In this document: one piece after another, positions 8,560 to 63,084 of the stretch
Position numbering within the stretch: the first letter of the stretch is position 1
How the letters are laid out: each line of letters opens with the position of its first letter
Source of the DNA: Patagioenas fasciata
Lineage: Eukaryota > Chordata > Aves > Columbiformes > Columbidae
DNA length: 64,000 bases
Direction: 5' to 3'
Assembly: GCF_037038585.1 (NCBI RefSeq)
Contig: NC_092522.1
Coordinates: 125,594,661 to 125,658,660 of the forward strand
Program-made: the position numbers and the translations under genes
The notes under the pieces: model-generated
Told to the model about the DNA's origin: nothing
Seen by the model: only the letters and a program-made list of their open reading frames with translations
Database searches by the model: none

Positions 8560-9680
8560 CTGCGGAAAACAGGCCAGGAGTTAATACCAGGAATGAGAGG
8601 GAACAGCAACACGCGCGGCCCAGAGGAGACGCACAAACGCGCTCCCTCAACTCCCAAGATCCGCCAAACCCATTCAGCACAACGTTCAAACAGCGATAAC
8701 AGCGGCATTTTAATGTATTGGAGGAGTTAACACGTGTCTGACCACAAATCAGTTTTGCTTGCAGAATGACAACACCCACACAGATAAAGAGACTCCCACC
8801 TGTCTTGTTCATCACACAACTGCCTTATAAAAAAGGAACTTGTTAGTTTAGTTTTTTACATTAAAATACATTTGCTCACTGTAAAAATCTCATTTTTTCC
8901 CTCTCCTGCCCTTCCTTAGTTGCTTTAAAGTTTGACTCTCGATTTAAACTCCGCTGTTCAAATACAAGTTTCATTGTAAGACAGCACAGCGATTGACAGC
9001 CAACGGACAAGTTGTATATCCTGAATATACCACACAGCAGGAACAACAGGAGCAACGCTTCATTCTCATCTCAGTCACTAACGCTGCTGTGCTGTCGAAC
9101 AGATGCCACATTCGGGGAATCATTTTCTAGGATCAGCAAGAGAAAACTATTTTGTCTCTATGGAAAGTACAAAAAAGCCCATTTAGCTTATAGATAGAAA
9201 TAGTGTTATTATTGTAGCAATACGTATTCCTGCTAGCAGGAAGACAGATAAGGATGAAATAGAGAGGGAACTAAGGCAGCGAAGCACAAAGGTGGCTCAT
9301 GGGGTTGAACAATCAGGAACCTCCAGTACGGGATATTAAGCCAGGCACGGTGTGACGGTCTCACTGTAAACCCACTGTTGCCATGAAGCCGGTTGTACAT
9401 TGGTTCAGCGGCACACAGGGCACAGGAAACGTGTGTGAAAGCTGTTGGAATTGTGAGAAACCTATTGGCAAACAGGACCGTACTGAGTCGTCATCCTGAC
9501 TGCAAACAGGCAGTGGTACGGGCTGACAGACCACAACATGGAGTCACATCGGACAGGAGAAAAAGGATTAAAATAAGGAGTTAAATGTATCAGACAGATA
9601 ATTTGTGCTATCATGGAAAACATGGTGATGGGGAAAATACATGCTGGGTGTTGGGAGAGGTCTAGAAGACCTCTCAGCTA
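8560..9680. other. DTNB intron, no gene seen
   Basis: Part of the 7.45-kb intron between exons 3 and 4. No element or exon recognised before the large tandem array begins at about 9681. Confidence 0.45.
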
Positions 9681-12350
9681 CTCATCAGCGGGCAGGAGAT
9701 GCACAGGGACCGTGTGTGCAGACACGGGAACACTCGTCAGCGGGCAGGAGATGCACATGGACCGTGTGTGCAGACACGGGAACACTCGTCGGCGGGCAGG
9801 AGATGCACATGGACCGTGTGTGCAGACACGGGAACACTCGTCAGGAGATGCACATGGACCGTGTGTGCAGACACGGGAACACTCGTCAGCGGGCAGGAGA
9901 TGCACAGGGACCGTGTGTGCAGACACGGGAACACTCGTCAGGAAGCAGGAGATGCACATGGACCGTGTGTGCAGACACGGGAACACTCGTCAGGAGATGC
10001 ACATGGACCGTGTGTGCAGACACGGGAACACTCGTCAGGAGATGCACATGGACCGTGTGTGCACACACGGGAACACTCGTCGGTGGGCAGGAGATGCACA
10101 TGGACCGTGTGTGCAGACACGGGAACACTCGTCAGCGGGCAGGAGATGCACATGGACCGTGTGTGCAGACACGGGAACACTCGTCAGCGGGCAGGAGATG
10201 CACAGGGACCGTGTGTGCAGACACGGGAACACTCGTCAGCGGGCAGGAGATGCACAGGGACCGTGTGTGCAGACACGGGAACACTCGTTGGCAGGCAGGA
10301 GATGCACAGGGACCATGCGTGCAGACACGGGAACACTCGTCAGGAGATGCACAGGGACCGTGTGTGCAGACACGGGAACACTCGTCAGCGGGCAGGAGAT
10401 GCACATGGACCGTGTGTGCAGACACGGGAACACTCGTTGGCAGGCAGGAGATGCACATGGACCGTGTGTGCAGACACGGGAACACTCGTTGGCAGGCAGG
10501 AGATGCACATGGACCGTGTGTGCAGACACGGGAACACTCGTCAGGAGATGCACATGGACCGTGTGTGCAGACACGGGAACACTCGTCAGGAGATGCACAC
10601 GGACCGTGTGTGCAGACACGGGAACACTCGTCAGGAGATGCACACGGACCGTGCGTGCAGACACGGGAACACTCGTCAGGAGATGCACACGGACCGTGTG
10701 TGCAGACACGGGAACACTCGTCAGGAGATGCACATGGACCGTGCGTGCAGACACGGGAACACTCGTCAGTGGGCAGGAGATGCACATGGACCGTGTGTGC
10801 AGACACGGGAACACTCGTCAGCAGGCAGGAGATGCACGCGGACCGTGCGTGCAGACACGGGAACACTCGTCAGGAGATGCACAGGGACCGTGTGTGCAGA
10901 CACGGGAACACTCGTCAGGAGATGCACAGGGACCGTGTGTGCAGACACGGGAACACTCGTCAGGAGATGCACACGGACCGTGTGTGCAGACACGGGAACA
11001 CTCGTCAGGAGATGCACACGGACCGTGCGTGCAGACACGGGAACACTCGTCAGGAGATGCACACGGACCGTGCGTGCAGACACGGGAACACTCGTCAGGA
11101 GATGCACATGGACCGTGCGTGCAGACACGGGAACACTCGTCAGTGGGCAGGAGATGCACATGGACCGTGTGTGCAGACACGGGAACACTCGTCAGCAGGC
11201 AGGAGATGCACAGGGACCGTGTGTGCAGACACGGGAACACTCGTCAGCGGGCAGGAGATGCACAGGGACCGTGTGTGCAGACACGGGAACACTCGTCAGC
11301 GGGCACGAGATGCACACGGACCGTGTGTGCAGACACGGGAACACTCGTCAGCGGGCACGAGATGCACACGGACCGTGTGTGCAGACACGGGAACACTCGT
11401 CAGTGGGCAGGAGATGCACAGGGACCGTGTGTGCAGACACGGGAACACTCGTTGGTGGGCAGGAGATGCACATGGACCGTGTGTGCAGACACGGGAACAC
11501 TCGTCGGTGGGCAGGAGATGCACATGGACCGTGTGTGCAGACACGGGAACACTCGTTGGCAGGCAGGAGATGCACATGGACCGTGTGTGCAGACACGGGA
11601 ACACTCGTCAGCGGGCAGGAGATGCACAGGGACCGTGTGTGCAGACACGGGAACACTCGTCAGGAAGCAGGAGATGCACATGGGCCGTGTGTGCAGACAC
11701 GGGAACACTCGTCAGCAGGCAGGAGATGCACATGGACTGTGTGCGCAGACACGGAAACACTCGTCAGCGGGCAGGAGATGCACATGGACCGTGTGTGCAG
11801 ACACGGGAACACTCGTCGGCGGGCAGGAGATGCACAGGGACTGCGTGTGCAGACACGGGAACACTGGTCAGGAGGCAGGAGATGCACATGGACCGTGTGT
11901 GCAGACACGGGAACACTCGTCAGGAGATGCACAGGGACCGTGTGTGCACACACGGGAACACTCGTCAGGAAGCAGGAGATGCACATGGACCGTGTGTGCA
12001 GACACGGGAACACTCTTTGGTGGGCAGGAGATGCACATGGACCGTGTGTGCAGACACGGGAACACTCGTCAGGAGATGCACACGGACCGTGTGTGCAGAC
12101 ACGGGAACACTCGTCAGGAGATGCACAGGGACCGTGTGTGCACACACGGGAACACTCGTCAGGAAGCAGGAGATGCACATGGACCGTGTGTGCAGACACG
12201 GGAACACTCGTTGGTGGGCAGGAGATGCACATGGACCGTGTGTGCAGACACGGGAACACTCGTTGGTGGGCAGGAGATGCACATGGACCGTGTGTGCAGA
12301 CACGGGAACACTCGTTGGTGGGCAGGAGATGCATATTCACTGTTTGTGCT
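9681..12350. repeat. Large minisatellite, 52/45-bp units, ~53 copies
   Basis: About 2.67 kb of head-to-tail units, each with GAGATGCACATGGACCGTG, then TGTGCAGACACGGGAACACT, then CGTC. Full units are 52 bp with a variable spacer (AGCGGGCA, GGCGGGCA, TTGGCAGGCA, TTGGTGGGCA or AGGAAGCA). Short units of 45 bp lack most of the spacer. A second variable site reads CACATGG, CACAGGG or CACACGG. Each unit holds the inverted repeat CCGTGT-GTGCAG-ACACGG. No unit contains a stop in any forward frame, so frames of 937, 934 and 899 codons run through it in parallel. I regard all of them as non-coding. Confidence 0.97.
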
Positions 12351-32934: not shown

Positions 32935-33990
32935 ACGATGATGCTACTTCAGCCCTGACCGCGGCTCCCGTCAGTCCCACCGAACCGCGGCTGCAGCCGC
33001 CGTGTCCCCGCCAGCACCTCTCGGCTGCCGGAGGAAACACCGAGGCACGGCCACAGCCTCCGGGGCCGCTCCAGCCGAGCGGCTCCACAGAGCAGGAGGG
33101 GCCGGCAGACCCGCCGGGCTCTCCCCCGCGTACGCGGGGCCCCGTCGGAGCACCGGCCGCTCCCCCGCGCCAGGCCCGGTGAACCCGCCGAACCCGCCAC
33201 GGCGCCGGGCTGAGGCGCGGGGCTCCGGCCGGCGCTGCCGCCGACACCCGCGGGCGGGAGGGGAGGAACGCGGGCCCGCTGCCGCCGGCCCCGCGCCCGG
33301 CCCGGGCTCCCTCCCACCCGCGGGCGGTAGCGGTGCCCGCGCGGGCCCGCCTCAGCCCCGCCGGCGCCTGCCGCGTCCCGCCGAGCACGCACCTCTGTGT
33401 CCCGCGGCAGCGGGCAGGGGGTCCCGGGCCGCCCGGCACGGAGCGCGGGCTCCGGGCGCCGCTCGCTCCGGCCCCACGGGCACGGGCGGCCAAGCGCCTC
33501 AGCCGCCCCTCTCCAACGGTCCCCGGCCGCCGCGCGGCGCCCAGCCAATCCGAGCACGCCTCCGCAGGCACGCGCGCACTCTCGCCAATCTGAGCCCGCG
33601 CCCGCCTCACCCCCTACGCCGCCGCCAGCCAATCGGCGGCCGAAAGTGTTAGCCCCGCCCCGTGCGACGCCTCCTGGCCGCCAATCACGAGGCGGACGCT
33701 GCTCCGGCGGCGGACGTGCGTGAGCGCACCTCGCGCGCTCCCTGCCCCCCCTTGAGCCAATCGGCGGCCGAGGCCAGCGGGCCCCAGGCGCGCTCGCGCT
33801 CTCCAGCCAATCCGCGGCCGCCGCCTCGCGCGCTCCCGCCGCTGCCCCAGCGCGCGCCGCCGGCGGCTCGCAGCGCCCCCACGTGGGGCTGGGGGGGCGG
33901 CGCTGCCCGGAGCGGCGGCACCGCGGGCCGGGGGCGGCTGCGGGAGCCGGGGGGCGGCCGCACGTGACCGAGGAGACCCTCAGGGAGACC
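32935..33990 (-). promoter_or_regulatory. DTNB: CpG-island promoter, probably DTNB
   Basis: About 1 kb of very GC- and CpG-rich DNA bounded by AT-rich DNA on the left and a CR1 on the right. It holds six CCAAT boxes in one orientation (see separate entry) and a CACGTG at 33961-33966. On the minus strand the sequence ACACAGAG followed by GTGCGT (exon end 33393) is a good donor for a non-coding first exon joining the DTNB start exon at 23754. Since that exon has only one untranslated base, an upstream first exon is required. The exact start site is not visible. The 440-residue minus frame 32949-34271 is an artefact of GC richness plus CR1. Confidence 0.7.
33545..33811. promoter_or_regulatory. 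Cluster of six CCAAT boxes
   Basis: CCAAT pentamers at 33545, 33585, 33629, 33681, 33757 and 33807, all reading CCAATC on the + strand, spaced 40-76 bp. Several sit in a shared context (AGCCAATC followed by GGCGGCCG or CGCGGCCG). This is the NF-Y site. All six read ATTGG on the DTNB strand. They sit 150-420 bp upstream of the candidate first-exon donor. Confidence 0.75.
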
Positions 33991-34065
33991 GGGCCGGGGG
34001 ACGCTCGGCTCGGGCAGAGCGCTCTGCGGGGCTGCTGCAGCGCATCGGCCGTGTCAGTGCTGCGG

Positions 34066-34475
34066 GAGAGGAGTGGAGAGGAGCATCTCCCGTGTGGGGA
34101 AAGGCTGAGGGAGCTGGGGCTCTGGAGCTGGAGGAGACTGAGGGGGGACTCATTCCTGGGGATCAATATGGAAAGGGGCAGTGTCAGGAGGATGGAGCCA
34201 GGCTCTGCTGGGTGACAACCAGTGACAGGACAAGGGGCAATGGGTGCAAACTGGAACACAGGAGGTTCCACTTAAATTTGAGAAGAAACTTGTTTGGGGT
34301 GAGGGTGTCAGAGCCTGGCCCAGGCTGCCCAGGGAGGTTGTGGAGTCTCCTTCTCTGCAGCCATTCAAACCCGCCTGGACCCCTTCCTGTGGAACCTCAG
34401 CTGGGTGTTCCTGCTCCGGGGGGGTTGCACTGGATGAGCTTTCCAGGGCCCTTCAGCCCCTGACACTCTGGGACT
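34066..34475 (+). mobile_element. CR1 LINE 3' end, sense, abutting CpG island
   Basis: Same subfamily and nearly same text as 21825-22240: GAGCATCTCCCGTGTG, CTGGGGCTCTGGAGCTGG, ATCAATATGGAAAGGGGC, GGTTCCACTTAAATTTGAG, and the end CACTCTGGGACTCTG. It begins immediately beside the promoter CpG island. Confidence 0.93.
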
Positions 34476-40196: not shown

Positions 40197-41710
40197 CTGT
40201 GTGTCCATACGTACATCCGCACAGCCCCATACAGACCTGCACCCCCCCAGCAGCGTGTGTCCATATGTATAGCCGCACAGCCCCATACAGACCTGCACCC
40301 CCCAGCAGCGTGTGTCCATACGTACGGCCGCACAGCCCCATACAGACCTGCACCCCCCCAGCAGCGTGTGTCCATACGTACAGCCGCACAGCCCCATACA
40401 GACCTGCACCCCCCCCCAGCAGCGTGTGTCCATACGTACAGCCACACAGCCCCATACAGACCTGCACCCCCCCAGCAGCGTGTGTCCATACGTATGGCTG
40501 TACAGCCCCATACAGACCTGCACCCCCCCAGCAGCGTGTGTCCATACGTATGGCTGTACAGCCCCATACAGACCTGCACCCCCCCAGCAGCGTGTGTCCA
40601 TACGTACAGCCGCACAGCCCCATACAGACCTGCACCCCCCCAGCAGCGTGTGTCCATACGTATGGCTGTACAGCCCCATACAGACCTGCACCCCCCCAGC
40701 AGCGTGTGTCCATATGTACAGCTGTACAGCCCCATACAGACCTGCACCCCCCCAGCAGCGTGTGTCCATATGTACAGCTGTACAGCCCCATACAGACCTG
40801 CACCCCCCCAGCAGCGTGTGTCCATACGTACAGCCACACAGCCCCATACAGACCTGCACCCCCCCAGCAGCGTGTGTCCATACGTATGGCTGTACAGCCC
40901 CATACAGACCTGCACCCCCCCAGCAGCGTGTGTCCATACGTACAGCCACACAGCCCCATACAGACCTGCACCCCCCCAGCAGCGTGTGTCCATACGTATG
41001 GCTGCACAGCCCCATACAGACCTGCACCCCCCCAGCAGCGTGTGTCCATACGTACAGCCACACAGCCCCATACAGACCTGCACACCCCCAGCAGCGTGTG
41101 TCCATACGTACGGCCGCACAGCCCCATACAGACCTGCACACCCCCAGCAGCGTGTGTCCATACGTACGGCCGCACAGCCCCATACAGACCTGCACCCCCC
41201 CAGCAGCGTGTGTCCATACGTATGGCTGTACAGCCCCATACAGACCTGCACCCCCCCAGCAGCGTGTGTCCATACGTATGGCTGTACAGCCCCATACAGA
41301 CCTGCACCCCCCAGCAGCGTGTGTCCATACGTATGGCTGTACAGCCCCATACAGACCTGCACCCCCCCAGCAGCGTGTGTCCATATGTACAGCTGTACAG
41401 CCCCATACAGACCTGCACCCCCCCAGCAGCGTGTGTCCATACGTACAGCCACACAGCCCCATACAGACCTGCACCCCCCCAGCAGCGTGTGTCCATACGT
41501 ACGGCCGCACAGCCCCATACAGACCTGCACCCCCCCAGCAGCGTGTGTCCATACGTATGGCTGTACAGCCCCATACAGACCTGCACCCCCCCAGCAGCGT
41601 GTGTCCATACGTACAGCCACACAGCCCCATACAGACCTGCACACCCCCAGCAGCGTGTGTCCATACGTACGGCCGCACAGCCCCATACAGACCTGCACAC
41701 CCCCAGGAGC
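40197..41710. repeat. ~56-bp minisatellite, ~27 copies
   Basis: Units run TGTGTCCATACGTA, a 10-base variable core, CAGCCCCATACAGACCTGCA, a C7-8 run and AGCAGCG. The C-run length and core vary. Core types include ACGTACAGCCGCAC, ACGTACGGCCGCAC, ACGTACAGCCACAC, ACGTATGGCTGTAC and ATGTACAGCTGTAC. Parallel long frames on both strands (519, 494, 469 + and 624, 560, 504 -) result from the stop-free unit and are rejected as genes. Confidence 0.97.
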
Positions 41711-42004: not shown

Positions 42005-42545
42005 TTGGACATTCATCCCCCTCTCCATAGGGATTGGTGTCCCCACCTCTCCATAGAGATTTGTGTCACCCCTCTATAGGAATTTGTGTTACCCCCTCTT
42101 CATAGGGATTTGTGTTCTCTCTCCATAGGGATTTGTGTTCCATCCTTCTCTCCATAGGGATTTGTGTTCCATCCTTCTCTCCACAGGGATTTGTGTTCTC
42201 CCTCCATAGGAATTTGTGTCCCGTCTCTCCATAGGGATTTGTGTTCTCTCTCTATAGGGATTTTTGTCCCTCCCCCTCTCCATAGGGATTTGTGTTCCAT
42301 CCTTCTCTCCATAGGGATTTGTGTTCTCTCGCTATAGGGATTTTTGTCCCCCGCCTCTCCATAGGGATTTGTGCTCTCTCTCCATAGGATTCATGTTCCC
42401 CCCTCTCCATAGGGATTTGTGTGCTCTCTCCGTAGGGATTCCTGTTCTCTCTCCGTAGGGATTCATGTTCCCCCTCTCCATAGGGATTTGTGCTCTCTCT
42501 CCGCAGGGATTCCTGTTCTCTCTCCATAGGGACTCGTGTTCCCCC
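42005..42545. repeat. CTCTCCATAGGGATTTGTGT tandem repeat
   Basis: About 20 imperfect copies of CTCTCCATAGGGATTTGTGT, with tails (TC, TCCATCCTT, CCCC) of varying length so that units are 20-32 bp. Copies become more diverged to the right (CCGTAGGGATTCCTG). Open frames reading MERxxHKSLW on the minus strand are repeat products. Confidence 0.93.
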
Positions 42546-43099
42546 GCTCCCAGTGCTGGCGCAGCACCCCCAGCCGCCGGCTGCCCGAGGGCCCCCGGGA
42601 CCCTTCCCAGAGCTCTGGTCTCCAACAGCCGCAGCCGCACCGTCCCCTGCAGGGGTTTCTCCCACCACAATCAAACACGACCGCCGTGACGGTTTCCTTG
42701 GAATGGCTGGGCTCTGGGTGTGTTGTCTGAACTCCCCAAAGCACCATAAGATGCTCACAGAAGAAATCAAGCTACTCATCACAACTCCGGCGCACAGCGG
42801 TCGGAGCCGCTCGGGCGCTGGTTTTGGCGAGGAGCTCCGGCAGTGTCCCTGTGGCTGTGACGGCAGCGGCACCGGGGTACAACATCCACCCCGCTCTGCT
42901 CACCACAGGTTATTCTGGGCTGTTTGGAGGCGACAGGAGCACAAATTAATGGAAACACAAACAGGAGCGGGACCGAGAAGCGTGCGGTGAGCTCTGAGCT
43001 GCCCAGCCCTGCCGCCCCGCGCTGCCCGGCCCCGGCGCTGCCTCCTCCCACCCCCCCGCGGCTTAAGCATCATCACACGCTCAACCCAACAGCTCAAAT
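42546..43099. other. Intergenic, GC-rich
   Basis: GC-rich DNA with no recognised gene. It ends at the sharp change to AT-rich DNA at 43100. Confidence 0.4.
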
Positions 43100-43675
43100 A
43101 CTTTTTAATACATTGAAAATGTAAAATAAAGAATATATGAAGTACATACAGTATATATATACAGATTTCAAATACTTAAAATTCTTATGTAAAATATGAT
43201 TTTTCTATATTATTTGTGTAAAAATACATTTGAAAATGGTGTCGACTCGATTTTTCTGTACATACCCTCTATTCCAATTTAAATCCCTTTTAAAAAAGCA
43301 AAAGACAGAGGTTCAGTGTGGTCTAAACTGCGTTTTCAGGCCGGCCGGCAGAACAAGGAAAGCGCGCAGGAAACAGCCCTGGATTTCTTCCTGTTGAGAA
43401 CTCCCAGTTTTATTGCATGAATGGAAAAACTGACTCTTCAGTGCTGTAATAGAAGTGTCCTTGGCCTTGCTGAGAAACCGCACGCCCCGCTACCCTGTTG
43501 ATCGACTCCATAAACCATCCTTTGCCCGTTTCTTTTTACAGTTACTAAAATATATATTACTTAAAATATATTACTGTAAGCTCTTAAAATCGATCTTCAG
43601 TTATATCAAATGTATAGCGTTAAAAAAAATACAAACAAATGCAATTCTGGCTATCGATGTCCCAGGGGCACAGCC
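43100..43675 (-). other. ASXL2: AT-rich block, candidate distal end of ASXL2 3' UTR
   Basis: An abruptly AT-rich block in GC-rich surroundings, unlike the repeats on either side. On the minus strand it reads as typical 3' UTR text and ends with ATTAAA at 43109-43104 followed by a GT-rich stretch (GCTGTTGGGTTGAGCGTG). The mammalian ASXL2 3' UTR is several kb long, so a 5.3-kb UTR from the stop at 48466 is plausible. This is inference: no transcript evidence is visible. Confidence 0.35.
43104..43109 (-). terminator. ASXL2: Candidate ASXL2 poly(A) signal ATTAAA
   Basis: ATTAAA on the minus strand with a GT-rich element about 15-30 bases downstream. Competing AATAAA hexamers on the same strand lie at 43414-43409, 45636-45631 and 46605-46600. 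The last has a T-rich downstream stretch (TCCTTTTGTTTTCG) and would give a 1.9-kb UTR. Confidence 0.3.
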
Positions 43676-43684
43676 GCCGTGCCC

Positions 43685-44930
43685 CCGCGGGTCACACCAA
43701 CCATGGGCTGGAGCCTCCCGTGGGTCACACTGACCATGGGCTGGAGTCTCCCGTGGGTCACACCAACCATGGGCTGGAGTCTCCCGTGGGTCACACCAAC
43801 CATGGGCTGGAGTCTCTCGTGGGTCACACTGACCACGGCTGGAGTCTCCCGTGGGTCACACCAACCATGGGCTGGAGCCTCCCGTGGGTCACACTGACCA
43901 TGGCTGGAGTCTCCCGTGGGTCACACCAACCATGGGCTGGAGTCTCTCGTGGGTCACACTGACCACGGCTGGAGTCTCCCGTGGGTCACACTGACCATGG
44001 CTGGAGCCTCTCGTGGGTCACACCAACCATGGGCTGGAGCCTCCCGTGGGTCACAATGACCATGGCTGGAGCCTCCCGTGGGTCACACCAACCATGGGCT
44101 GGAGCCTCCCATGGGTCACACCGACCATGGGCTGGAGCCTCCCATGGGTCACACTGACCATGGCTGGAGCCTCTCGTGGGTCACACCAACCATGGGCTGG
44201 AGCCTCCCGTGGGTCACACCAACCATGGGCTGGAGCCTCCCGTGGGTCACACTGACCATGGCTGGAGCCTCCCGTGGGTCACACCAACCATGGGCTGGAG
44301 CCTCCCGTGGGTCACACTGACCATGGCTGGAGCCTCCCGTGGGTCACACCAACCATGGGCTGGAGTCTCCCGTGGGTCACACCAACCATGGGCTGGAGCC
44401 TCTCATGGGTCACACCAACCATGGGCTGGAGCCTCCCGTGGGTCACACCAACCATGGGCTGGAGCCTCTCATGGGTCACACCAACCATGGCTGGAGCCTC
44501 CCGTGGGTCACACCAACCATGGGCTGGAGCCTCCCGTGGGTCACACCAACCATGGGCTGGAGCCTCCCGTGGGTCACACCAACCATGGGCTGGAGTCTCC
44601 CGTGGGTCACACCGACCATGGGCTGGAGCCTCCCGTGGGTCACACCAACCATGGGCTGGAGCCTCCCGTGGGTCACACCAACCATGGGCTGGAGTCTCCC
44701 GTGGGTCACACCAACCATGGGCTGGAGTCTCCCGTGGGTCACACCAACCATGGGCTGGAGCCCCCCGTGGGTCACACTGACCACGGGTCACAGTGACCCC
44801 CTGGGACCGTCCTGGCACAGGTGACTCACGGGTCACACCACCCACGGGTCACAGTGACCCCCTGGGACTGTCCTGGCACAGGTGACTTGCAGGTCACACC
44901 AACCACGGGTCACACCGACCCCTGGGACCG
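43685..44930. repeat. 33-bp minisatellite, ~34 copies, with degenerate tail
   Basis: Units of 32-33 bp: GGTCACACCAACCATGGGCT then GGAGCCTCCCGTG, with a one-base deletion variant (CCATGGCTGG). At about 44780-44930 the units diverge into longer copies with CCCCCTGGGACCGTCCTGG. Twelve copies have the variant half-site that creates a perfect GGTCAnnnTGACC palindrome (see findings). Long frames on both strands (for example 44176-44796 + and 44312-44845 -) are repeat artefacts. Confidence 0.96.
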
Positions 44931-45804
44931 TCCTGGCGCAGGTGACTCGGCCAGGACCCCCTGCTGGTTCCCACCCCCACCCCCACGAGCCAGCTCCCCG
45001 AGCACCCCGGTCTGTGACCCAAGAAGGGACATGGAGATGTGACACTAAGCTCCCCGCCATGGCGCCCGATCCACCTCCACAGCTCAGCTCGGTTGCCGAG
45101 CCGTGTTGGCGCCCCCATCAACAACGTGCACGGGGCTTGTGCGCTGGAACGCCAAACTCCAGCCATCGAGCTGCATTTCTGGTTCTCACGCTGGATGTGG
45201 CCTGAGAGGGAAAATTTCAATCCAAGTATCTTTTCTTACTCAAGTCGCTTTCACCGCCACAAACGTTGTCTGACGTTAGACTTTGAGAAGGTTGTAGCTT
45301 TGATTTTATGTCAGTATTTACCACGGTGCTATTAAATGAACACCTGGGGAAGCAAAGGCTGCTGTTCCGAGCCACGTCGGCCATCCCTTGGAGGGCAAGT
45401 GCGGGTTCATGTGCGGCAGGAGGGCGATGCTGGGAGGAGCGGAGCCACAGCTGCAATTTCCCCTAAACACGACCCAACCTCATGGGTAAGTGCTCATTAC
45501 ACCGAGCCCGTTGTTCCTAACGATTTCCTAACGACTTAATGCCCCTTGCGAACCTGCGGAGGTGGCTCCATCAGGCTGCACCCAGTGGCTCAAAGCATTT
45601 GTGAGAACCAAAGACATGCACTTAGAAGGATTTATTGTCTTACAAAGGAATAGAACAAAAGCAGCCCAAGAAAAGTGCTGATCCGTTGAAGATCCCTAAG
45701 GCACTGAGCAGGCTGAGCACCCCGGCACCGCGCCAGGTGCCCGCACGGTCCCACGCGAGGCCGGAGCCACCGTGGTGCCCTGGCGGTGGGACAGTGACGG
45801 CTGA
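44931..45804. other. ASXL2 3' flank or UTR, no gene seen
   Basis: No element recognised. It contains a minus-strand AATAAA at 45636-45631. Confidence 0.4.
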
Positions 45805-46190
45805 GTGATGGAGCGGCTGAGGGACCTGGGGGTTCAGCTGGAGAACAGGAGCTGAGGGGAGACCTTCTGATCTCTGAACTGCCTGAAAGGAGCTTGGAGC
45901 CAGGGGGGTCGGGCTCTGCTCCCCAGGAACAAGCGCCAGGAGCAGAGGAAACGGCCTCAAGTTGCCCAGGGGAGGTTGAGGTTGGATGTGGGAACAATTT
46001 CTTCCCCAAAGGGCTGTGGGGCATTGGAACAGGCTGCCCAGGGCAGTGCTGGAGTCACCATCCCTGGAGGGCTGGACAGACGGACAGGAGGTTCTCAGGA
46101 CAGGGGGCAGGGACAGGGGTGGGTTATGGCTGGACTCCATGACCTTAAAGGTCTTTTCCAACCAAAATGATCCTATGATTCTATGATCTT
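45805..46190 (+). mobile_element. CR1 LINE 3' end, sense
   Basis: Sense CR1: GATGGAGCGGCTGAGGGACC, TGGAGAACAGGAGCTGAGG, AGGTTGAGGTTGGATGTGGG, CAATTTCTTCCCCAAAGGGC, GGAGTCACCATCCCTGGAGG, ending in the tandem terminal motif ATGATCCTATGATTCTATGA. This intact end defines the family to which the many antisense copies belong. Confidence 0.95.
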
Positions 46191-46375
46191 CTCTTTCTCC
46201 CTTTAATGCCGCCTTGTCAGGCAAGAAAAATGCCAGCGACCAAAGCCGAGGTGTGAACAGAACGGATCCAACGTGCCAGCGAAACCCCTTCGTTCCCAGC
46301 CCAGGCAAGAACAACTTTTCCAGTTCAGTTTGTATGGATCTCGAGCGGGGTTGTGGCGGGGGATCCGAGACAGGA
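46191..46375. other. ASXL2 3' flank or UTR
   Basis: Nothing recognised. Confidence 0.35.
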
Positions 46376-46441
46376 GGGGACGTGTGCCTGGGGGGACGTG
46401 TGCCTGGGGGGACGTGTGCCTGGGGGGACGTGTGCCTGGGG
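46376..46441. repeat. 16-bp minisatellite, 4 copies
   Basis: Four tandem copies of GGGGACGTGTGCCTGG. Confidence 0.88.
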
Positions 46442-47541
46442 AGGCACTGCCGAACCCTCCTGTGCGCGGACGCGGGCCGAGCTGCCACGGGACCGCCCCG
46501 GCCCCAGCGCCGCGCAGCTCTGCGGGAAAACCAGGGTCATTCGGTGTAGGGTTTGGGGTGGTTTTTGAGATTTCAGTTACAGATCGAAAACAAAAGGACT
46601 TTATTTCTAATCCTTCAACGCTCTGTGCCACCCGATGGCCGAGCAGAGGTGCAGAATTAGAAAGCGGGGGTCACTGCTCCCCCATCAATTCACCACGAGC
46701 ACAACAGACCAGGGCGCGCGGCAGCGCTGGCTCACGGACCCGCTCGCGCTGCCGGGAGGACCCCGCGCTCGCCGGACGGGGACGGGGACGGGGACGGAAA
46801 CGTGCCGGGATTAACTCCGCAGCTCCTCTCTTCACCGTTACCCGCTCCCTGCACGCACGCATCCCCCTCCGGCGCCGTGCGGGGTCACCGGCAGCACGGG
46901 CGGCTCCGGCGCGGGGACAGCGCCGCGGCAGAGAGGAGGAGAGGCTGAGGAGCGCAAACCCCTGTCCCACCTCTCCTCTTAATATTGCTTCATTTTAAAA
47001 AGGCCTTTGGATTAAAAGTGAATTCAGTGCTTTTCCATCAAAAAGACACAGATCAGTGACCTGACCGGGATGCGACAACGCGGGGCTGGAGGGGACCGGC
47101 GACCCTCGTGCTGTTTCGGGAGAGAAACGACGCCCAGAGCCTCGGTGAGACCCGGACACACCGCAACCCACCAAACGGCAGCTCGGCGGCTCCCTGGCCA
47201 GCCTGCGGCCGGTCCGCCCGCGGGAACGGGACCCGAACCGCTGCCTAACGCTTTAATTCCGATTCATCACGGGGACCATGTGTGAGCAGGGGCGGCGAGG
47301 GCGAGCGTCCCCCCGTGTCCGGCCGCGGGTGCGGTGCAGCCCCGCAGCTCGGCTGAGCACGCTGCGCCAAGCCGCCTGGCACCCGTGCGCACAGAGACCC
47401 GCCGGGGGCCGACGGGGAGGACCAACGGACACGCGTGCTCCTGTCCCTGCGCTTCATCAAACAGAAACCTACAGAAACGAGAGGCCTGACTGCCGGGGGC
47501 TGCTGGGGCACAGGAACCATCCCAAGAGCAGCGGGACCACG
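46442..47541. other. ASXL2 3' flank or UTR, GC-rich, no gene seen
   Basis: GC- and CpG-rich, especially 46680-47400, with several open frames (such as 46273-46998 +) but no recognisable family and no sign of splicing. A minor unmethylated island or an unknown short gene cannot be excluded. Confidence 0.35.
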
Positions 47542-47609
47542 GGTGACACCTCTGCCCGTCACCGCCACCACGCGCGGTGACACCTCTGCCCGTCACCGCC
47601 ACCACGCGC
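47542..47609. repeat. 34-bp perfect tandem duplication
   Basis: Two identical copies of a 34-bp unit beginning GGTGACACCTCTGCCCGTCA. Probably a recent slippage event. Confidence 0.9.
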
Positions 47610-48465
47610 GGTGACAGCGAGGGGACAGCGCTTCCCAGCTCACTGGAAACGCCTCCACCAGGAGGTTCCTGCTGGTCCGGCAGCCCAGACACGCAACGCA
47701 GCTCAGCACGCGTGTGACCTCTGCTTTAGACCGAGCTGGGATCACTGGTACCGGGTACCGGGTTGGTTTAGTGATTCAAACTCTGGAATCCTACGGTTAG
47801 TACGGTTGCCTTTTTCAGTATTCACCAGGAGCAAACGGGGACACCAGGTCAGTGCCCTACTGGAGAGGCCAGGGCACGCACACCAGAGCTCCAGCCAATA
47901 TTGCACAGCCCGGCCACAGCCCAGCGGCCGGGACGGGAAAGGCTGGGCCGACGTTAATGCCTTGCAGTGGGAAACGTTCCAGCTAAAACGTGAGCGACAG
48001 AGGTGACCCCGGGGGCTCCGTGCTCTGCCAGCGCTCAGCACAGGCACCTCGCTCTTGATTATCCCGTCCTCCTTCGTGCAGAGCAGACAAAGGGCTGCGG
48101 TTGAGCGGGGCTCGTCCCCCGCCTGGCGCAGAGCTCGGCAGGTGCCGGGGAGCGGGCTGCGCTGAACCCAACTACGACTCCAACACCATCTCTCCTAAAA
48201 GACTGAAAAAATATCTTTAAACAAAATAATGTGACATATTTACAGAATTCCTTAAGTGCAAACTCTTGTCACAATTCCTGCGGTTGAGCGCAGTTTAGAC
48301 TCACTGTACAAGAAGGTGCTCTTTCTTCAATGAAAGAAGGACTGTACTCTCTATTCCTGATTCAGTAACGTGTCTCTTGTGCAAGGCAGTAAATTTCCTG
48401 TTTCTTCCCAACGTAATTCCGAAAGCAAACCCCAAACGGAGCCGTGCTCCCCCGCGCCCGGCCCG
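47610..48465 (-). other. ASXL2: ASXL2 3' UTR, proximal part (inferred)
   Basis: Directly downstream of the ASXL2 stop codon on the minus strand, so at least the part near 48.2-48.46 kb (AT-rich, unlike the coding exon) should be 3' UTR. No coding signal. Confidence 0.55.
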
Positions 48466-50775
48466 TTACCGCACGACGAGGCAGGACACGCAGAGCTTGG
48501 AGGGCCCGATGCAGTCATCATGGCAGAAGGCGCCGCAGCCCTTGCACATGATCATGGCTTTCAACCTGCAGTAACATTTGGAGGGGGGATCCTCGGCGCC
48601 GCCGTCCTCCGCGAAGGCCTGGCCGGGGATGGGCTGCCCGTGGCCGCCGGAGCCGGCGGGGATGGCGGTGACGGTGACGGAGAAGGACATGACGTTGGCC
48701 ATGCTGCTGGCCAGCTGGTTGCAGTCGGCCAGCCCCGTCATGAGCGAGCCCTGGCTCACGTCCGGCCCGGTGGACACGTTGATGGTGCCGCTGTAACTGG
48801 GCGCCAGGAGCTGCGCCGCCGCGGTCCCCGGCAGCTTCGGCGGCTGCGCGGGGTCCGGGGACGGGGCGGCGGCACCGAAACGCTCGGGGTTGCTCGGCGT
48901 CTTCCCCCGCATCGCCTGTGCCACTTGCTCCTGGGCGGCGTGCAGGAAATCCCGTGCCAGCGCGGTGCCGTCCAAGGCCTGCCCGTTCTCCCTGCCCGCC
49001 GCTGCTTGCTGAGAGGCGGCCGCGGCCGTCGCTGCCCCCTTTTTAGCGAGGGGGCTGTAATCCGGGGAACTTGTGCTGCGTGACACCTGCTCTTTTTCAC
49101 ACTGGCCAGAGCGCTGGGGCTCCTCCTTTACACTGACCTGCTCCCGTTCATCACCGGTGCTCTCGTCATCCTCGTCCCCTTCGTCGCTGCTGCTGCGGCC
49201 GCCCGGCCCCTCGTGTTCCCCAAACTCTGCTTTCGGGCCGTCAGCGGGGCTGTTCAGACACACGCGGCTGTCGGGGTTCAAGAAGCCTCTCCTCAAACTC
49301 TCCGAGCCCCGGCCGTAGGTGGAGATGTTGAGCAGGTAATGCCCAGACATGGCGGGCTTGGACGTCCTCCTGCCCACGAACCCCAGCACCAGCCTCTGGC
49401 TGGGGGAGCCGGTTTCCACCTGGAAGCCCGAGCGAGGGAGGCTCAGCTGGGACGGCTGAAGGACGGGCAACAAATTCTGCCTCTGGACCCTCTTGATGAG
49501 GGTCTGCAGGATCTGCTCCTGCGTGGCTTTGCTGAGCGCCTCGTGGCACGGGTGCTGGTCCGGACCCGGCTCCTTTCCCGGGGGTGGCGGAAAGGTCCGT
49601 GGGATGTGCGGCAGGGGCCTGTTCTGGCACAAGAGCTTCCCGAGCTGCTGGGGGGCACAACTCGATTGTCTGTCCCCGCCCTCGGCTCCGGCGCCGTTCC
49701 CGGCTGCACTGGGTGCTGCTGCCGCTACCCTTTTTTCTTCGTGAGAAGCTAGCGGGACGGTTTTCATCTCTGCTTTGGTGAGAGGTTTGGGCAGGATTTG
49801 CTCCAGAGGGACGTTCTTGCCTTGCAGAAGCTGCGTGACCAAAGGGTTGTTGGCAGGAATGCTGGAGCTGGGTTTTGGGAGGGTCGCACTTGAGCTTGAA
49901 CTTGTGTGAGTTTTAAGGCTTGGTGCTGCTGACGCAGCGTTGGAGGGGGGGACAGACGTGACCAGAGCCCCGGCCTGGGCTCCCGAGCTGGCGGCTGTTC
50001 GTGAGGACACCACGGGGGATGGGCATGTGCTTTTGGAGACATCCGAGCTGCTCCCTCCCACGGCCGCGGGTGCCACCTTGGTTACGTTGGTGTCGGCGCT
50101 GGCCGTGGACGCCGCGATGCCGAGCGCTCCATCCCTGAGGGCTGGTGCCCCGCAGCCCTGGCCCGGGGCACACGGGGCCTTCTCCGGCCCGTCCCCGCCA
50201 CCAGCACGCGAGGAGCCTGGAGCCGCGTCCGCAGCCGCGCTGGGGGCGCCCTGCCCGGTGCTGCCCGCGGTCTCTAGCGCCGATGCGGAGGAGGACGAGG
50301 AGCCGGCGCGTGTGGCGGGAGCTGCGGGCTGCAGCGCGGGGGTCTGCTGTAGTTGTGCTCTAGGACTGCGCGGGGCTGCCTGCTCCGCGGCCTGGGTCTC
50401 CATGTGCGTGGGGGTCCCTGCGCAGTGGGGAAGAAACCTTCCCGAACCTCCCCCGCTTCCAGTTCCTGCCAGTTCCAGTGCTCTTCCTCCAGCTCCCGCC
50501 TGGCCGGCTCCCCCGGTTGCTGCGCTGCTCTGGTCTGCTCCGCCGCCCGGAGGGGCCCCCCCGCCGCCCGGCCCAGGCCCCGGCACAGCCCCCCCGGCCG
50601 AGGCGGCGGCGGCGGCGGCTGCTCGCTGGGCCCGGGCCTGCTGGGCCTTGGCCTTGATGTCGGCCAAGGTTCTGGCCCCTCTGCGGCCCGGACTGGGGAG
50701 CGAGAGCGGGAAACGTGCCCTGGGAGAGACCTGGCCCGCGGGAAATGGCATCGGGGAGATCCTGGACACGGGGAT
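48466..50775 (-). CDS. ASXL2: ASXL2 last coding exon with PHD finger and stop
   Basis: 2,310 nt from acceptor CTCTGTTGCAG (ending 50776) to the stop at 48466-48468: 769 residues. Family landmarks in order: [32 protein letters not shown], a short poly-Ala run then [33 protein letters not shown]...[11 protein letters not shown] (about exon residue 310), [39 protein letters not shown] (about 476), a sumoylation-type VKEEP, and the C-terminal PHD finger (48469-48576). The finger has Cys4-His-Cys3 ligands and the ending [39 protein letters not shown] and [15 protein letters not shown] mark ASXL2 rather than ASXL1. ASXL2 scaffolds BAP1 in the Polycomb repressive deubiquitinase complex and recruits chromatin and nuclear-receptor partners. 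The exon is GC-rich and shorter than the mammalian exon. The frame extends 66 codons upstream of the acceptor into intron. Confidence 0.96.
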
Positions 50776-52468
50776 CTGCAACAGAGGAGAAGAGCACAGC
50801 TGAGACACGGCCAACAGCGCGCGACTCGAGGATCTACGTGTTCGCGGTTTAGCCCTAGAGAAACCCCCCTGAGACCCCCCCGGCCCCGCTGAGCCGGATC
50901 CCACAGCCACGTGCGATCTCCCGCTGCCCCTCACGCTGCTCTGAACCCCATCATCCCTTATTCCAAGCTCCACCCTTTACTCCTATGTCATTTATATCCT
51001 TTTCAACAGCCTATATTCTGCTCCATTTTGCGTTGCTTTGCTACCCCTGCGTGGCTATACCTTCTCCTCAGTATCTCTATACAAAGTAATACTAATCTAT
51101 CATCTGTAGGTGAGACGCCAATATTTGAGCCCTACGCCACGTCCTCCGCCCCCTCGGGGTTCGGTTCCCTCGCTGTACGTTTGTTCTCCCTGGAACGCCA
51201 GAGCTGAGAACTGGGCACTCGGGTTCGTGCTCTTGTCTCCACTGCAAAGGTGTCCGCGAGTCTGTTCTAAGGGCACATTAGTGTCCGTCTGTCCGCAACA
51301 CCCGCTGCCTCCTCATTAACCAGGTCACCACTCGCTGGCTTCTGAGGGCTGACAGGTCTTCTACCTTACAGGAGAGACTATTTTCAATCGCCCTTAAATT
51401 CGCTCTATGATTAAATTAAATCCCATTTTTATTACACTGAGGGTCAAACGTTCTTCCTGCACTGTATTTCAGTTCTCTTTTATTGACAGTTTTCCCCCAG
51501 TTCTGTGTCACTGTTATTAATGCTTTCCTCCCTTCCCGCTGTACTTACTAACACAGTGACAACAACAAACTGTTCTTAAAACACCGTGTTTGTGTTCTTC
51601 CTACTCTAAAAGAATCTTAACCAGAGAGATGAATTCCTAGGACGTACGGAAGCAGAGGAATCCCGCAGTTTTCCATTGACAACTTCTGCCCCAGAGCAGG
51701 GAGCGGAACGCTCACCAGGGCAAATTCTGGTAGGAAATCGCAGGCCTCATCCTGCAGAAACCAACCGGTCCGTCCGTCCAGCACCCGTGACCGCGCAAAC
51801 CCGTTCTGCTCCGGCTCACGCGGCCACTGTCACCGCTCGGTGCCACCTGTGCTCGCGTGACCTCCGCACCACTTTCCGGGAGGGCCCGTAACGCCCGCCT
51901 CGAGCGGCTCGTTGTTCCTTTCCCTTCCTATCGAGGTCTCGCTAGGACTCAGCAGCGAAACAGAGATGTTCCCTACAGGAGCCTGCTGGTCCGGCACCAC
52001 GCTGCGTTCAGCTCTGGAACCAGGACTGTGCTATTGCTACGTGCTCTTTTTTTGAACACAGGTAAATAATTAGGTTTGTGGACGGGGTACAACAGAGGAA
52101 GCTGCTGGGAGCGTCCGTGCCGGGCCTGTTTGCTCGTGCGCCGCTGGGGACGCTGGCACGGCTGCGCGGGTCTGTTACCCACAGCTCCGCCGCCTCCGGC
52201 GAGAACTCCCTGCCACACCAGCCCTGGGCTTCTGCACAGCTCTGAGCTTCCACCCAGATCTTTTACCACATGCACGTGTACAGGGGAGACTCAGAGCCGG
52301 CGGCTTCCCCTTAGCAAAGAGCTGAGCTTTTACACCTTGGCATTGAATATTTCCATCACTCTAATAGGCAGGGAAGGCAATTACCAACGTAACCGGAGCT
52401 GACGGCGCATTTCTGCGCGAGCACCGCCCGCACGGCCGCGCCTCGGGGCGTCCCTCCAGGTCTCTCAC
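50776..52468. other. ASXL2: ASXL2 last intron, no other gene seen
   Basis: 1.69-kb intron with acceptor at 50776-50777 and donor GTGAGA at 52468-52463. T-rich and C-rich near 51.0-51.6 kb. No repeat recognised. Confidence 0.6.
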
Positions 52469-54076: not shown

Positions 54077-54702
54077 TCCGTACACACTCGTGTACACACA
54101 CACACGTGTACACACACACACGTGTACACACACACACGTGTACACACACACACATGTACACACACACACGTGTACACACACGTGTACACACACTCGTGTA
54201 CACACACTCGTGTACACACACACGTGTACACACACACACGTACACACACACACGTGTACACACACACGTGTACACACACACACGTGTACACACACACGTG
54301 TACACACACACGTGTACACACACACATGTACACACACATACACGTGTACACACACATACACGTGTACACACACACACACGTGTACACACACGTGTACACA
54401 CACATACACGTGTACACACACACACACGTGTACACACACGTGTACACACGTGTACACACACACGTGTACACACACACACGTGCACACACGTGTACACACA
54501 CACGTGTACACACACACACGTGTACACACACACATATGTACACACACACACGTGTACACACACACACGTGTACACACACACACGTGTACACACACACATA
54601 TGTACACACACACACGTGTACACACACACATATGTACACACACACATATGTACACACACATACACGTGTACACACACACATATGTACACACACACACGTG
54701 TA
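54077..54702. repeat. (ACACAC)n-CGTGTA alternating purine-pyrimidine tract
   Basis: About 625 bp of ACACACACGTGTAC units of 10-18 bp (length set by the CA run), with occasional ATATGT or ACTCGTGT variants. Nearly every unit contains CACGTG. Strand composition alternates strictly purine-pyrimidine for long stretches. Cys/Val and Thr/His frames (for example 53876-54868 - and 53890-54786 +) are artefacts. Confidence 0.97.
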
Positions 54703-56017
<1,315 letters not shown>

Positions 56018-58230: not shown

Positions 58231-59741
58231 AGGGACAGAACCGGGGACAGAACCGGGGACAGAACTGGGGACAGAACTGGGGACAGAACCAGGGACAGAA
58301 CCGGGGACAGAACCGGGGACAGAACTGGGGACAGAACTGGGGACAGAACTGGGGACAGAACCAGGGACAGAACCGGGGACAGAACCGGGGACAGAACTGG
58401 GGACAGAACTGGGGACAGAACCAGGGACAGAACTGGGGACAGAACCAGGGACAGAACCGGGGACAGAACCGGGGACAGAACTGGGGACAGAACCAGGGAC
58501 AGAACCAGGGACAGAACTGGGGACAGAACTGGGGACAGAACTGCTGCAGGGTGTGGGGACAGAACCGGGGACAGAACTGCCGCAGGGTGTGGGGACAGAA
58601 CCGGGGACAGAACTGGGGAGAGAACCAGCACAGGGTGTTGGGGATGGAACTGGGGACAGAACTGGGGACAGAACTGGGGACAGAACTGGGGACAGAACTG
58701 GGGAGAGAACCAGCACAGGGTGCTGGGACAGAACCGGGGACAGAACTGGGGACAGAACCAGCACAGGGTGTTGGGGATGGAACTGGGGACAGAACTGGGG
58801 ACGGAACTGGGGACAGAACTGGGGACAGAACTGGGGACAGAACTGGGGACAGAACCAGCACAGGGTGTTGGGGACGGAACTGGGGACAGAACTGGGGACG
58901 GAACTGGGGACAGAACTGGGGACAGAACTGGGGACAGAACTGGGGACAGAACCAGCACAGGGTGCTGGGGATGGAACTGGGGACAGAACCGGGGACAGAA
59001 CTGCCGCAGGGTACAGGGACAGAACCGGGGACAGAACCAGCACAGGGTGCTGGGGACAGAACCGGGGACAGAACCAGCACAGGGTGCTGGGGACAGAACC
59101 AGGGACAGAACTGCCGCAGGGCGCGGGGACAGAACCGGGGACAGAACCAGCACAGGGTGCTGGGGACAGAACCGGGGACAGAACTGCCGCAGGGTACAGG
59201 GACAAAACTGGGGACAGAACCAGCACAGGGTGCTGGGGACAGAACCGGGGATGGAACCAGGGGCAGAACCAGCACAGGGTGCTGGGGACAGAACTGGGGA
59301 CAGAACCGGGGACAGAACCGGGGACAGAACCAGCACAGGGTACAGGGACAGAACTGGGGACAGAACCGGGGACAGAACCGGGGACAGAACCAGCACAGGG
59401 TACAGGGACAGAACTGGGGACAGAACCGGGGCAGAACCAGCACAGGGTGCTGGGGACAGAACTGGGGACAGAACCAGCACAGGGTACAGGGACAGAACTG
59501 GGGACAGAACCGGAGCAGAACCAGCACAGGGTGCTGGGGACAGAACTGGGGACAGAACCAGCACAGGGTACAGGGACAGAACTGGGGACAGAACCGGGGC
59601 AGAACCAGCACAGGGTGCTGGGGACAGAACTGGGGACAGAACCAGCACAGGGTACAGGGACAGAACTGGGGACAGAACCGGGCGCAGAACCAGCACAGGG
59701 TGCTGGGGACAGAACCGGTGACAGAACCGGGGCAGAGCCAG
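58231..59741. repeat. 12-bp minisatellite with higher-order units
   Basis: About 1.5 kb based on GGGGACAGAACC or GGGGACAGAACT. The left third is almost pure 12-mers. Further right, blocks of 12-mers are separated by CAGCACAGGGTGCTG, CAGCACAGGGTACAG or TGCCGCAGGGT inserts. At about 59400-59720 they settle into a regular higher-order unit of roughly 84 bp, repeated about four times. Gly-Gln-Asn-Trp/Arg frames on + and Ser-Pro-Val-Leu frames on - (503-585 residues) are artefacts. Confidence 0.97.

Positions 59742-63084
<3,343 letters not shown>

Follow-up and report, generated by a model that had tools for sequence, protein, structure and literature searches.

The window analysed here, the whole 64 kb stretch of DNA (positions 1-64000), contains twelve perfect copies of GGTCAnnnTGACC, the 13-bp inverted-repeat core of the estrogen response element (ERE), and a pattern scan of the entire window places every one of them within a minisatellite at 43684-44948 in the 3' flank of ASXL2. 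This repeat is a real but ordinary minisatellite, and its cores are real and not independent chance hits. Very probably, decay of a CpG created the palindrome in a repeat unit, turnover of units then multiplied it, and the sites probably lack a selected receptor function.

Structure and genomic setting of the repeat

TRF places the start of the main array (43684-44768) at 43684 and describes 33.4 copies of a 33-bp unit with 91% matches. Cutting at GGGTCACA, first encountered at 43689, divides the array into 33 units of 32 or 33 bp; the longest interval is 33 bp, so every unit contains the motif. On the plus strand GGGTCACA occurs 38 times, and 33 of the 37 intervals measure 32 or 33 bp. The commonest unit, GGGTCACACCAACCATGGGCTGGAGCCTCCCGT, accounts for 10 of the 33, and the array comprises 15 unit types that differ at nine variable columns, a deletion being counted as one. 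The array thus has the head-to-tail units of roughly 10-60 bp and the variant repeats by which a minisatellite is recognized. A related 61-bp unit follows in three copies (44769-44948), each with two GGTCACA motifs. GC-rich vertebrate minisatellites have units of about 10-60 bp, contain variant repeats and undergo unequal exchange. The present array resembles ordinary members of this class in unit size, GC content, the mixing of a few variants and higher-order spacing, and is unlike them in that one of its variants matches a textbook nuclear-receptor site.

Nine of the twelve cores lie in the 33-unit array (units cut from 43689 to 44768), where they span 43723-44322, begin at 43723, 43822, 43887, 43952, 43984, 44049, 44147, 44245 and 44310, and occupy units 2-20 of 33, eight of the nine in 32-bp units. 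The remaining three begin at 44770, 44786 and 44847 in the adjacent 61-bp-unit array. Intervals between consecutive cores are 99, 65, 65, 32, 65, 98, 98, 65, 460, 16 and 61 bp, and the spacers are CAC, CAA or CAG. When one mismatch is allowed, six extra places appear in the 64 kb, namely three unrelated ones (936, 6600 and 17039) and three copies of GGTCACACCGACC within the arrays (44114-44126, 44605-44617 and 44908-44920), which represent a CpG-containing and probably ancestral state of the unit. An earlier note on this DNA had listed the same twelve starts and the same spacers, an exact match, and had described the three GGTCACACCGACC sites as single-step intermediates, all of which were found; the usual unit that it characterized by GGTCACACCAACC is seen in 22 of the 33 main units.

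The array begins 3.5 kb past a stop codon (TAA, 48466-48468) that closes an open frame on the minus strand (48466-50976) belonging to the last ASXL2 coding exon. The C-terminal frame (48469-50976) encodes an Asx PHD finger (PF13922, E 5.4e-23), the frame has a match in the ASXL1 C-terminus (PDB entry 8svf), and an ASXH domain lies at 61806-62132 on the same strand (PF13919, E 1.6e-15). A dystrobrevin query sequence gives five minus-strand matches between 4.6 and 23.8 kb, each with E 2e-5 or better and 64-77% identity; another four rows, with E 4.8 or worse, were treated as chance. Among its paralogues the ASXL gene was taken to be ASXL2 on the basis of gene order and of the distinction between DTNB and DTNA. 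DTNB and DTNA are the genes downstream of ASXL2 and ASXL3, respectively, in human and mouse according to a review (PMC11121404), and the dystrobrevin matches on the minus strand fit this order. The minisatellite has the ASXL2 stop codon on one side and DTNB on the other, with about 20 kb separating it from the first DTNB coding exon that was found. Between this exon and the array lies a strong CpG island (33001-34100, GC 0.81, CpG observed/expected 0.99), which is perhaps the DTNB promoter.

Minus-strand AATAAA or ATTAAA hexamers within 42901-48468 occur at 47252, 46600, 46202, 45631, 43409 and 43104. The most distal is the ATTAAA at 43104-43109, whose surroundings are AT-rich (GC 0.39-0.44 over 43001-43600). 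Use of the hexamer at 43409 or 43104 would place the array inside the ASXL2 3' UTR. The segment at 45800-46190 resembles the 3' end of a retrotransposon, presumably CR1, and closes in ATTCTATGA-type repeats. This element and the earlier note are the grounds for treating the window as presumably avian.

Origin and multiplication of the palindromic core

Whether a unit carries an ERE is decided by columns 10-11, where TG yields a perfect core and CA yields no ERE. Among the 33 main units this dinucleotide is CA in 22, TG in nine, CG in two and TA in none, and the 61-bp copies likewise show TG, CA and CG states. The presence of CG, TG and CA at one dinucleotide, with TA absent or rare, is a mark of CpG decay, and it is the pattern expected from a methylated CpG decaying on either strand. 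Two other dinucleotides also vary, columns 16-17 (TG in 31 units, CG in two) and columns 31-32 (CG in 29, CA in four). Substitutions affect four of the six bases in these three CpG dinucleotides vs four of the 27 others (Fisher p 0.02), a test that is partly circular, since it was the occurrence of a CG state that qualified columns 10-11 and 16-17 as CpG. For the array the ratio of observed to expected CpG comes to 0.31, vs 0.77 for the flanks (42501-43683 and 44949-48465), although the array value in effect repeats a single unit 33 times and the flanks are not uniform.

The CG state occurs in both the 33-bp and the 61-bp arrays of this single sequence. More simply than in other orders, CG would be the ancestor, and CA and TG its two decay products. 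The original unit probably happened to carry GGTCACACCGACC, whose CpG would have decayed to CA, giving the common unit, and to TG, giving the perfect ERE core. The path proposed earlier ran from CAACC through CG to TG; the CG units along it exist, and its direction may have to give way to one that starts from CG.

The TG units share a second mark, the loss of 1 bp from the GGG run, a deletion present in eight of nine TG units vs one of the 24 others (Fisher p 5.6e-6, for units that are not independent). All nine TG units fall within the first 20 of 33 (p 0.004), and adjacent TG pairs number one vs 3.6 expected (p 0.025); the two tests were selected with the pattern already in view. Successive TG units are separated by 3, 2, 2, 1, 2, 3, 3 and 2 unit steps, and it is the steps of two or three units that give core spacings near 65 and 98 bp. 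One linked variant copied as two- and three-unit blocks explains both the deletion linkage and the clustering. The TG variant with its deletion would have been copied, mostly in alternation with other units, across the left-hand two thirds of the array, and unequal crossing-over or gene conversion is the probable route. The twelve sites may perhaps trace to a single event in the main array and a further one or two among the 61-bp copies, where the spacers are CAC and CAG. Linkage and clustering lend support to the earlier suggestion of a neutral by-product spread by unit turnover.

Parts of this history have counterparts elsewhere. CpG deamination reportedly creates transcription-factor sites (work of Zemojtel et al. 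in 2011, cited by PMC6060477); the cases are alike in that a change from CpG to TG completes a binding motif, and unlike in that the site in the ASXL2 flank was multiplied inside a tandem array. Alu-borne DR2 sites, as described in PMC1785376, also involve a repeat that carries and multiplies a receptor-type motif, with dispersed transposon copies in place of one local array. EREs predicted in silico in a study of the canary genome, which one bird has and another lacks, likely through point mutation (PMC4373106), offer a similar parallel, although they are promoter sites rather than an array of copies. No report of a minisatellite with an ERE was found in the open-licence literature. Among open-licence titles and the beginnings of abstracts, satellite DNA or variable number tandem repeats combined with ERE yielded no such array, and bird minisatellites yielded nothing of this kind; PMC8303610 describes EREs on the snake Z chromosome, in passages that mention no array. 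In sequence collections that by description comprise prokaryotes, viruses and plasmids, the pattern GGGTCACACYRACCATGG was matched in 2 stretches of viral_contigs and 16 of genome_contigs, one match each; about 30 chance matches are expected in the 257 Gb of genome_contigs.

Motif counts in the arrays of the window

Dinucleotide shuffles of the window (n=100) contain on average 0.15 matches to the 13-base pattern GGTCANNNTGACC, with a maximum of two, vs twelve observed, and twelve independent chance sites are thereby rejected. This null presumes independent sites and is the wrong yardstick for cores that are tandem copies of one another. For the same reason, the figure of 0.06 sites expected by chance in the earlier note is misleading.

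Another comparison is provided by the other repeats of the window, which is rich in minisatellites. Fifteen arrays, hand-merged from 42 TRF rows with short rows and the array at 382-482 left out, cover 9,964 bases or 15.6% of the window, and with about 15 arrays some textbook motif at high copy number is to be expected. Two palindromes of the 5-N3-5 form reach at least 8 copies in the window, the ERE core and AGCACnnnGTGCT, the latter with 12 copies, of which the array at 58232-59736 contains 11; no receptor is known to use it. Palindromes with other spacers exceed the ERE count, as exemplified by CCGTGN8CACGG, with 50 occurrences in an array at 9680-12333. This array consists of 53.5 copies of a 52-bp unit and is flanked by dystrobrevin matches. 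That at 58232-59736 (12-bp unit, about 125 copies) has the ASXH frame on one side and the last ASXL2 exon on the other and is open in all six frames (514-622 aa); its 622-aa plus-strand frame, the one frame tried, has no Pfam match. A third, at 40199-41710 (56-bp unit, 27 copies), is likewise open in all six frames (482-633 aa) and contains several exact palindromes, for example GCTGTACAGC 11 times. ACACACACGTGTAC-like units make up the array at 54082-54709, which has 30 CACGTG matches.

We also counted the motifs of a panel of 42 entries across the arrays. Six reach 8 copies in some array and 36 in none. Those with at least 8 in the ERE array are the ERE core (12), the RGGTCA half-site (41), the NF-kB consensus (9) and TCACACC (27); in other arrays, CACGTG occurs 30 times in the one at 54082 and RCGTGS 8 times in the one at 9680. 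In no array of the window does the full T-box site TCACACCT reach 8 copies. The nine NF-kB matches are copies of GGGAGACTCC on the minus strand (43743-44733), which fit the NF-kB consensus GGGRNWYYCC and serve as an internal control for the look-elsewhere effect. Mock arrays (n=5000) were assembled from units drawn at random from the window, and 9.1% of them contain at least 8 copies of some motif from a 26-entry panel, 7.2% at least 8 copies of some 5-N3-5 palindrome and 29.8% at least 8 copies of some palindrome with a spacer of 0-6; all have 33 units of 33 bp with transitions at the variable columns of the real array, whereas the window's own arrays vary in length. Both panels were chosen once the finding was known. 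The ERE core itself reaches 8 copies in none of the 5000. It is accordingly a rare draw for this particular motif, and the neutral case leans on the choice of motif having been made after the fact. Counting further against neutrality, the left half-site is invariant in the 33 units, perfect cores occur in the adjacent 33-bp and 61-bp arrays alike, and the best two, those matching RGGTCANNNTGACCY, use a different spacer, CAG.

Receptor binding, RNA structure and other factors

From the core alone, binding of estrogen receptor dimers in vitro is likely. A more ambitious reading has such dimers assembled on the twelve cores as an enhancer of, or a brake on, ASXL2 or DTNB, possibly in a feedback loop. 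This we regard as very improbable. The twelve perfect cores are packed within 1.1 kb, many lie about three helical turns or multiples thereof apart, the GGGTCACA motifs mostly recur every 32 or 33 bp, and the failure of all mock arrays to reach 8 cores also speaks for it; turnover, however, accounts for the copy number. The core shows no sign of excess conservation within the array, where two of its ten columns vary vs seven of the 23 others (p 0.69, a comparison of 33 units in one array with small power). Selection on the core, sought as lower variability in this small within-array test, was not found. Both outer bases are right in just two of the twelve sites, which match the 15-bp form RGGTCANNNTGACCY with purine-GGTCA on both half-sites (44785-44799 and 44846-44860, in the 61-bp-unit array), and in ten they are not, although this longer form is not an absolute need. 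Both estrogen receptors target GGTCAnnnTGACC, according to PMC5634881. Computed EREs can be inert: near PCNA, ER-alpha bound one of two such elements in vitro, but neither activated a reporter or recruited ER-alpha in MCF7 cells (PMC2568806). The same review that gives the gene order calls ASXL2 an ER-alpha coactivator (PMC11121404). That role concerns the ASXL2 protein, and the ASXL2 gene does not thereby become a receptor target; a feedback loop is thinkable, and the coactivator role is no evidence for it. The ASXL2 passages of PMC5355080 contain nothing on ER binding. An evolved receptor platform is unsupported beyond the motif match, and of the two readings in the earlier note, a dense receptor-binding platform and a neutral by-product of the repeat, it is the second that is supported.

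The array might instead act in RNA, with hairpins formed by its units in the ASXL2 3' UTR and the TG units mattering for stability or processing. On the minus strand the stop codon and the most distal of the poly(A)-like hexamers do bracket the array, the ASXL2 transcript may run through it, and GGUCA...UGACC is also a short stem. Across the six stretches that were folded, the common CAACC unit reaches -15.1 kcal/mol (z -2.0) and two in a row -31.7 kcal/mol (z -1.8). Of two TG units folded singly, one forms the 5-bp stem. Both, however, fold worse than the common unit, at -6.3 and -9.2 kcal/mol (z +0.8 and -0.05); z is -1.4 for a TG unit paired with a common one and +0.6 for a CAG stretch taken from the 61-bp unit. 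No Rfam family reaches its gathering threshold in 40000-64000, the part of the window scanned. Hairpins are consequently not favoured as the cause of the palindrome, and the chance that the array works through RNA is very slight. Equally little credit is due to the idea that another factor is what counts, bound at the T-box-like core TCACACC or at the NF-kB-like GGGAGACTCC, with the ERE cores as a side effect. Its 27 and nine copies in the array are countered by the same look-elsewhere problem that besets the ERE and by the shortfall of the full T-box site in every array; moreover, TG units destroy TCACACC, and nothing shows constraint. Such a role is extremely unlikely.

The reading that we prefer remains an ordinary minisatellite in which CpG decay and turnover made the cores. 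A further reading, in which the copy number set by turnover of a CpG-decay ERE tunes the estrogen control of ASXL2, so that the feedback loop differs in strength between individuals or species, we judge highly unlikely. As a neutral repeat, the array illustrates cleanly that motifs counted in tandem repeats should be judged against a null built on events rather than on copies. If it were functional, it would be a dense ERE array that varies naturally, and hence a test of how the copy number of a site relates to the hormone response.
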